NCBI RefSeq assembly: GCF_012027555.1
Contig: NZ_SNUQ01000001.1
Span: 186,001 to 250,000, forward strand
Source of the DNA: Thermococcus sp. CX2
Lineage (GTDB): Archaea; Methanobacteriota_B; Thermococci; Thermococcales; Thermococcaceae
Reading direction: 5' to 3'
Length of the DNA: 64,000 nt
Program-made: the position numbers and the translations under genes
In this document: piece by piece, positions 16,055-49,772 of the stretch
Layout: the number at the start of each line of letters is the position of its first letter
Position numbering within the stretch: position 1 is the stretch's first letter
Notes under the pieces: generated by a model
The model's input: the letters and a program-made list of their open reading frames with translations, nothing else
Told to the model about the DNA's origin: nothing
Database searches by the model: none

Positions 16055-16719
16055 GTTTTATTTTCTCCTTTGAGCTCTTTTATCAGCCCAACCAGCTCCC
16101 AGAGGTCGCTTACGTAGTAGTCAGCACCCTCCACCTTTCCGAAGCGGGTGACGTTGACGGCCTTCATTCCCGCGCGGTGGGCAGCCAAAACGTCATGAGT
16201 GCTGTCACCAACCACTATGGCCTCCTCCGGCTTGAGGCCCAGCGCCTTGAGGGCCTTCTCCACGAGGTAGGGATTGGGCTTAACTCCATCTAGATTGGAG
16301 TAGTCCTTGCCGTAAACAACGTCGAAGTACTTCCTCAGGCCGAAGATGTCAAGGACGAACTCTGTGCACTCCTGGGAGGCGTTGCTCACCGCGGCGAGCT
16401 TCAGGCCCATCTCCTTCAGCTCTCCCAGAGCATCAACGTCAGGGAAAGGCTTTATTCTTCCCATCTCCGCCATTTTCCTGCGGTATTCCAGGTTCACCTC
16501 GTCCACGAGCTTCCAGAACTCGACGTGATCGATCCCAAAGCGCTCGACGTAGCTCCTGGGCAACTCACCGGTCACCGTTTTTCGGTAGTTTTCGTAGTCC
16601 AGCTCTATTCCCTGCCTCCTGAGCGCGGGGAGAACCCAGTTCTCGTACCATTCGCGGTGATCATAGCCCTCATAGTAGACGAGGGTCTCATCCACGTCGA
16701 AGATTAAACCCTTAAGCAT
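16042..16719 (-). CDS. HAD-superfamily hydrolase (phosphatase-like)
   Basis: 225 residues with all four HAD motifs: I, IFDVDETLVYY (Asp nucleophile near residue 8); II, AAVSNASQ (~114); III, the lysine in DGVKPNPYLVEKAL (~154); IV, AIVVGDSTHDVLAAHRAG (~178). A C1-type helical cap lies between I and II. The DxDET form and NPYLVEKAL context are usual for small-molecule phosphatases (phosphoglycolate phosphatase-like). The substrate is not readable. The start codon abuts the D box of a box C/D sRNA candidate, and GGAGG, part of that element, is the ribosome binding site. Confidence 0.92.
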   Translation of the reverse strand: MLKGLIFDVDETLVYYEGYDHREWYENWVLPALRRQGIELDYENYRKTVTGELPRSYVERFGIDHVEFWKLVDEVNLEYRRKMAEMGRIKPFPDVDALGELKEMGLKLAAVSNASQECTEFVLDIFGLRKYFDVVYGKDYSNLDGVKPNPYLVEKALKALGLKPEEAIVVGDSTHDVLAAHRAGMKAVNVTRFGKVEGADYYVSDLWELVGLIKELKGENKTQSP

Positions 16720-16792
16720 GCCTCAGCCTCCTGGACTGCTCATCACTTTACCGCGAAGCGCGGTTTCAGCCGGTTGATCCTTCTTCATCGGC
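16720..16792 (-). ncRNA. Box C/D guide sRNA candidate in the HAD gene leader (16S rRNA 5'-end guide)
   Basis: On the minus strand the order is GCC, G, box C ATGAAGA (16788-16782), a 12-base guide AGGATCAACCGG, box D' CTGA (16769-16766), a 19-base spacer forming a CCGCG/CGCGG hairpin, box C' GTGATGA (16746-16740), a 13-base second guide, box D CTGA (16726-16723) and GGC. GCC/GGC can form the terminal stem. The first guide is exactly complementary to CCGGTTGATCCT, the conserved 5' end of archaeal 16S rRNA, placing predicted 2'-O-methylation on the U of CCGGU. A TATA box (GCTTTTAA, ~16816-16823) predicts a start near 16794. Box C deviates at one base (A for U). Confidence 0.65.
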
Positions 16793-16830: not shown

Positions 16831-17559
16831 TCAGAAGAGCTCCTCAAGCTTGACGTCTATCTTGTCGGGGTTGAACGGAAGGACGTGCCGGGTGGTCTTG
16901 GGTGAGTAAACTTCTCCCCTCTTGACGAGCTCCATGACTTCTTCCTTGCTCGGGGCCTTCCTGATGAAGACGTAGTCTATCTCGCCCTTTGCCATGTCTT
17001 CTCTAGCATCTTCCTTGAGGCCATAGTAGATGAGCTCAATCTTGCCCTCAACGCTCATCTCGTCGAGAACCTTACTCACCTTCTTCTGCTCCTCAAGGCC
17101 ACCAGGAATGGCAAAGCTCTTCTCGCCGACGAGGGCAAATGCTATCTCGCCACTCTCGGCCTTCTCCTCGGCCTCTGGATCCTCGATGACTTCGAGACCC
17201 TCGGCCTTGAGCCTCTCGAGAACCTCTTCGAGGCTGCCCTTGAAGGCAGGATACCAGGTGTAGACCTTTACATCGTCGCTGAAGTAGTCGAGAATGACCG
17301 ACGGGGCGCGCTTGGCGCCGAGCTTCTGAAGGCCGGCCCAGCGGTGGTGGCCGTCAACGATGAGGTACATGTCCTCGCCCGGGACCTTCGCGAGGAGCAT
17401 CGGCTTCCAGAAGAGGCCGGAGCCGGTGACGCTCTCGATGAATGCCTCGAGCTCCTTCTGGACGAGCTGCTCGTGGGGCTTCATCTTGTCGAGCTCGATA
17501 AAAACGTAATCAACCTTAACCGTCGGGATGTCATACTTCGGAACCTTTTCGACTCCCAT
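16831..17559 (-). CDS. serK: ADP-dependent L-serine kinase, ParB/sulfiredoxin fold
   Basis: 242 residues. The ParB-like N-terminal domain contains VFIELDKMKPHEQLVQKELEAF and the nucleotide-binding YLIVDGHHRWAGLQKLGAKRAP motif (residues ~80-100). The length and the DGHHRW motif match the SerK family described in Thermococcus kodakarensis, which phosphorylates free L-serine to O-phosphoserine with ADP as donor, feeding cysteine synthesis. The ~120 C-terminal residues form the second, family-specific domain. GGAGGTCG lies 7 bases before ATG 17559. Longer in-frame starts have no binding site. It is divergent from DUF763. Confidence 0.87.
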   Translation of the reverse strand: MGVEKVPKYDIPTVKVDYVFIELDKMKPHEQLVQKELEAFIESVTGSGLFWKPMLLAKVPGEDMYLIVDGHHRWAGLQKLGAKRAPSVILDYFSDDVKVYTWYPAFKGSLEEVLERLKAEGLEVIEDPEAEEKAESGEIAFALVGEKSFAIPGGLEEQKKVSKVLDEMSVEGKIELIYYGLKEDAREDMAKGEIDYVFIRKAPSKEEVMELVKRGEVYSPKTTRHVLPFNPDKIDVKLEELF

Positions 17560-49662: not shown

Positions 49663-49720
49663 GCCCGATGACGAGCGGTTTCGGGTCTGAGGTGTGATGA
49701 CACCAGCTATCGCCGAGGGC
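49663..49720 (+). ncRNA. Box C/D guide sRNA candidate (dual 23S rRNA guide)
   Basis: Order: stem GCCC (49663-49666), box C ATGACGA (49668-49674), guide GCGGTTTCGGGT, box D' CTGA (49687-49690), 3-base spacer, box C' GTGATGA (49694-49700), guide CACCAGCTATCG, box D CCGA (49713-49716), stem GGGC (49717-49720). C and D both differ from consensus at exactly the paired U-U position, becoming C-C, a compensatory-looking change. The guides are complementary to ACCCGAAAC and CGATAGCTGGT, which match conserved 23S rRNA domain II from memory. A TATA box (TTTATAAACC, 49634-49643) predicts a start near 49662. Confidence 0.72.
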
Positions 49721-49772
49721 ATTTTCATAATAATTATATACGCTTGACCCCCTTGCTCATCCGGTGGTGAAG

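Follow-up and report, generated by a model that had tools for sequence, protein, structure and literature searches.

A diverged sR14-type box C/D sRNA abuts the start codon of a HAD hydrolase gene in Thermococcus sp. CX2 and very probably contains its ribosome-binding site

Introduction

Box C/D sRNAs that overlap the 5' end of an ORF form a known minority class in archaea. In the account of Tripp et al. (2017) given in PMC7994747, 7 % of genes in six archaea showed an overlap of this type; the start codon comes immediately after the D box, and in a reporter the gene that follows was expressed less. In Thermococcus kodakarensis, 11 potential snoRNAs have been located in 5' UTRs (PMC4247193), and the circularised sRNA sR15/Tko-sR16 is abundant (1.6 million reads), the circular reads depending on the RNA ligase TK1545 (PMC9014305). 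A k-turn in an mRNA 5' UTR is also known from L7Ae, which represses its own mRNA through its leader (PMC5539422).

The locus described here lies in a 64 kb window, namely the whole stretch of Thermococcus sp. CX2 DNA that was analysed (64 000 nt), and its features are listed in Table 1. A C/D sRNA touches the start of a same-strand downstream ORF, and the start codon again follows the D box directly, as in the overlaps described in PMC7994747. The comparison of sR14-HAD loci differs from what that account gives in that it separates the constraint on the guide from the constraint on the ribosome-binding site. The HAD leader shares a k-turn with the L7Ae leader but is a complete four-box guide sRNA, and regulation through it is speculative. 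A sequence-only reading of this DNA had considered the overlap of sRNA and leader to be unexplained by either feature alone. The overlap is real, with 0 nt between the GGC of the terminal stem and the HAD AUG both in the window and in all 23 sRNAs scored. However, it is less strange than that reading suggested, given the class already described (PMC7994747, PMC4247193). The sR14-HAD leader is an unusually well-documented case of a known kind of overlap and no new system.

Architecture of the sRNA

Read on the minus strand from 16792 to 16720, the order is GCC-G-AUGAAGA-AGGAUCAACCGG-CUGA-(19 nt)-GUGAUGA-GCAGUCCAGGAGG-CUGA-GGC, and the HAD AUG follows. The C, D', C' and D boxes thus stand in order and with short spacing, as in archaeal box C/D sRNAs, and all four boxes and the GCC/GGC stem are present where the sequence-only reading had placed them. 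Its assignment of the RNA to the C/D guide sRNAs also holds. A four-box descriptor matched twice in the window, at this sRNA and at the annotated sR28, and had no match in 40 dinucleotide shuffles; the family is also conserved (see below).

Table 1. Features of the sRNA-HAD locus and of sR28 in the window
Feature	Position	Strand	Remarks
HAD-IA family hydrolase, 225 aa	16042..16719	-	ATG at 16719; N-terminus as in orthologues
Box C/D sRNA, sR14 (RF01145) orthologue	16720..16792	-	also the entire predicted HAD 5' leader; identified from boxes by eye, RF01145 score and sequence model
Terminal stem	GCC 16792-16790, GGC 16722-16720	-	by eye
C box AUGAAGA	16782..16788	-	A, not U, at position 5
D' guide AGGAUCAACCGG	16770..16781	-	12/12 pairing with 16S nt 4-15
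D' box CUGA	16766..16769	-	
Hairpin ACCGCG-CUU-CGCGGU	16750..16764	-	within the D'-C' spacer
C' box GUGAUGA	16740..16746	-	
D guide GCAGUCCAGGAGG	16727..16739	-	
AGGAGG, very probable HAD ribosome-binding site	16727..16732	-	7 nt before AUG; complementary to 16S 3' end CCTCCT
D box CUGA	16723..16726	-	its UGA forms an in-frame stop, two codons 5' of the HAD AUG
TATA-like TTTTAA	16816..16821	-	centre ~26 nt before the sRNA 5' end
serK, ADP-dependent L-serine kinase	16831..17559	-	upstream neighbour, synteny anchor
sR28 (Rfam)	49664-49718	+	58.3 bits; C box AUGACGA, D box CCGA, TATA-like box upstream

Two details depart from the usual form. The C box is non-canonical, and the D'-C' spacer has 19 nt rather than the usual 3, with a 15 nt GC hairpin inserted that the sequence-only reading had passed over. 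Similar spacer hairpins are found in five further genomes (G075, G076, G079, G080 and G093), and the insert might convert what is usually a k-loop into a k-turn capped by a stem. Predicted folding of the leader is weak at 85 °C.

Across 73 sRNAs, the C-box base at position 5 co-varies with the D-box base at position 2, which lies opposite it in the k-turn (3b/3n). The pairs are C/C (30), U/U (25), C/U (7), A/U (6) and others (5), counts that are not corrected for relatedness; the window sRNA has A/U (16784 and 16725). For the inner pair of boxes, CCGA occurs as D' with GUGACGA as C' in the T. kodakarensis group. The sR28 gene sits ~50 nt before the probable start, near 49770, of a gene that was named ftsY by eye.

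Identity and distribution

At the Rfam cut-offs, only a tRNA and sR28 were found in the window. When the settings were relaxed, sR14 (RF01145) was the best family at the sRNA locus, at 24.5 bits against a gathering threshold of 38. Orthologues of the window copy score 41-62 bits, including 61.8 for P. abyssi, 59.3 for P. horikoshii and 52.7 for both T. kodakarensis and genus g14, and the P. yayanosii orthologue is also above the cut-off. These four species names are those that we take the relatives' genomes to carry.

The T. kodakarensis orthologue (start site 316202) is identical in sequence to the published circular sR15/Tko-sR16, and the agreement in coordinates confirms the naming of that genome. 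It is expressed in that species and, like the window copy, adjoins serK. It differs from the window copy in having the D guide ATCGGTCTTG and in not lying upstream of HAD; the gene after it resembles the DUF835 gene found in other species. Because orthologues lie above the cut-off and the T. kodakarensis copy combines serK synteny with a published RNA, and as the D' guide is held in common, the window copy is a diverged sR14 orthologue, and not a threshold-passing member of the Rfam family. It shares the C/D architecture and the D' guide to the start of 16S rRNA with sR14, but has another D guide, the A in the C box, the hairpin insert and the abutted HAD start codon. The published Tko-sR01 at TK0058, which is also a HAD gene, was considered as a counterpart and ruled out by coordinates, the orthologue being at 316 kb.

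A sequence model of the family, built from 19 relatives, matched 79 of 94 Thermococcaceae genomes and all six genera, a tally that takes in a few matches from a second guide family (L131, L136-L139). Conservation of the boxes in relatives with HAD had been proposed as a check on the sequence-only reading, and the claim came through it. The second family is a distinct C/D family found in several Thermococcus genomes, with a guide ending ...TTAACCGG and the D guide GCTGGACCCGTG. Two genomes (G024 and G073) have two copies (L087, L090), a standard copy that lies apart from the HAD start and, before HAD, a diverged copy with the guide GGATCAACCCA or GAATCAACCCA. On contigs labelled Desulfurococcales, Thermogladius, Staphylothermus or Thermoprotei (L035, L043, L046-L049, L053 and L056), the same guide to the 16S start precedes CTGA, and the rest of the sRNA is without clear homology.

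Guides and their predicted targets

The complementarity of the first guide to the start of 16S rRNA, as claimed from the sequence, was recovered in full. The D' guide forms 12 of 12 Watson-Crick pairs, its best rRNA match by far, and none of 60 shuffled guides equalled it. The 16S residue U8 is opposite the fifth base from D', in agreement with the N+5 rule of archaeal box C/D sRNAs, and the motif GGATYAACC is nearly invariant across the family. From this complementarity, we infer that the guide would direct 2'-O-methylation of U8. The P. abyssi sRNA carries the same D' guide, and a study of the P. abyssi 30S subunit (3.2 Å structure and mass spectrometry) lists Am373, Cm1376 and ac4Cm250 and has no entry for a methylated U close to the start of 16S rRNA, so U8 methylation stays a prediction.

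The D guide is lineage-specific. Its forms include ATCGGYCTTG, which pairs with 16S nt 448-460, GTCCGCATCAC in Pyrococcus and CAGTCCAGGAGG in the window copy, and exact CCTGGACTG matches are present in the genome. No significant target for CAGTCCAGGAGG was found among the organism's own 16S, 23S and tRNAs, where the best matches of the D guide were no better than those of shuffled guides. The candidates tRNA-Asn (8 bp) and 16S 1416 (8 bp, one G-U) were judged to be chance matches, as shuffles match as well.

The HAD gene and its neighbourhood

The HAD start codon is secure because the protein shares its first residue with orthologues whose leaders are unrelated. A TATA-like element is found at the same spacing of about -26 in most relatives, and this spacing suggests that the sRNA and the HAD mRNA probably use one promoter and share a transcript. 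In most Thermococcus genomes examined, serK is upstream of the sRNA. Downstream arrangements vary: HAD is at distance 0, or 8-45 nt from the sRNA (g13, g14, g15, G031, G089 and G023), or, in some genomes, a DUF835 gene with its own TATA-like box (the assignment was tested for one example) comes after the sRNA and is followed by HAD or by no HAD. In genus g14 (L114, L116, L118-L120 and L127), the D box runs into GAGGTG, a possible HAD ribosome-binding site, and the HAD start is a TTG ~10 nt past the model match.

On a MetG tree, direct abutment of sRNA and HAD comes out as the basal state of the genus and is widespread in it, and HAD has moved away from the sRNA repeatedly. A recent fusion of sRNA and HAD by deletion of a DUF835 gene is not favoured, as the abutting state is basal on this tree. 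In g13, g14, g15 and G031, too, HAD comes after the sRNA, indicating an old neighbourhood. The sRNA persists without an adjoining HAD in many genomes, including those of Pyrococcus. T. kodakarensis has both, apart, and one complete genome (G019) has kept HAD while no sRNA was detected in it. Neither the sRNA nor HAD therefore needs the other, and the coupling is not essential.

Guide core and ribosome-binding site

The 23 HAD-abutting sRNAs scored were compared with those of 10 genomes that have the CAGTCCAGGA core and HAD elsewhere (one genome, G030, was added by hand). The D guide ends in GGAGG in all 23 abutting sRNAs. Positions -1 and -2 are thus both G in 23 of 23, compared with only 3 of the 10 uncoupled genomes; the last two bases are TA, AA, AT or GA in the other 7 (Fisher p = 3e-5, a value that overstates independence because the genomes are related and relatedness was not corrected for). 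The core CAGTCCAGGA (positions -3 to -12) does not vary among the 10 uncoupled genomes and hardly varies among the coupled ones. The terminal changes fall on about five branches of the MetG tree, a rough tally, since the genomes are related and the locus may have recombined. The serK and MetG trees disagree, the serK tree being poorly resolved, and the sRNA/HAD locus may recombine.

As the core is fixed while the terminal GG varies with HAD, the guide core and the ribosome-binding site constrain one RNA separately. On the simplest reading, the core is kept for the sRNA and the final GG for HAD translation. GGAGG, which the sequence-only reading had taken for the HAD ribosome-binding site, very probably is one.

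Proposed mechanism and alternatives

We consider it likely that one promoter produces one sRNA-HAD transcript with two exclusive fates, as guide RNP or as HAD mRNA. Transcription from a promoter just downstream of serK would yield an RNA in which the first ~73 nt are the sR14 guide RNA and the rest is HAD coding sequence. Some transcripts would bind L7Ae, Nop5 and fibrillarin and be trimmed to the sRNA, the D' guide of which would then act on 16S U8. Others would be translated, with the GGAGG that ends the D guide as the ribosome-binding site. On any one molecule, the two fates would be mutually exclusive. The three uncoupled genomes that still have GGAGG count against this explanation.

That competition between guide and mRNA regulates HAD is speculative. 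In its strongest form, this would be a selected off-switch: L7Ae binding to the k-turn, or assembly of the full sR14 RNP on the nascent leader, would repress HAD under an excess of C/D core proteins, their supply dividing the molecules between rRNA modification and HAD mRNA. The position of the ribosome-binding site inside an RNP-forming unit with the AUG directly after it, the L7Ae precedent (PMC5539422) and the age of the neighbourhood are all in favour. However, in the older lineages (g13, g14, g15 and G031) the ribosome-binding site is after the sRNA or at its edge, HAD has relocated repeatedly and is present in G019 without a detectable sRNA, and there is no known reason to tie a HAD hydrolase to rRNA modification. 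We regard such a switch as unlikely. The earlier suggestion that HAD expression is coupled to L7Ae or to rRNA-modification supply found no evidence in its favour, given the repeated uncoupling, the separated parts in T. kodakarensis and the HAD-only G019.

More doubtful still is that GGAGG is merely guide and HAD is translated in some other way, for example leaderless after cleavage exactly before the AUG. The terminal stem does stop exactly at the AUG, ~14 % of T. kodakarensis mRNAs are leaderless, and GGAGG retained in three uncoupled genomes would fit; against this, variation of the terminal GG is confined to genomes in which HAD is uncoupled, with the core of the guide fixed. That the leader is only a cis-acting k-turn and no functional guide sRNA, as suggested for some of the T. 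kodakarensis 5' UTR snoRNA predictions (PMC4247193), is highly improbable, as many genomes keep the sRNA without HAD, the T. kodakarensis RNA is abundant and yields circular reads, and the D' guide shows both conservation and an exact match to 16S rRNA.

The shared transcript with two fates is thus the reading we prefer. The locus amounts to a natural comparative experiment: across close Thermococcus genomes, one guide RNA is either joined to a gene or free of it, and it is mainly the two bases completing the probable ribosome-binding site that respond to attachment of the gene. The sharing of one archaeal transcript between a guide RNP and translation thereby becomes testable.
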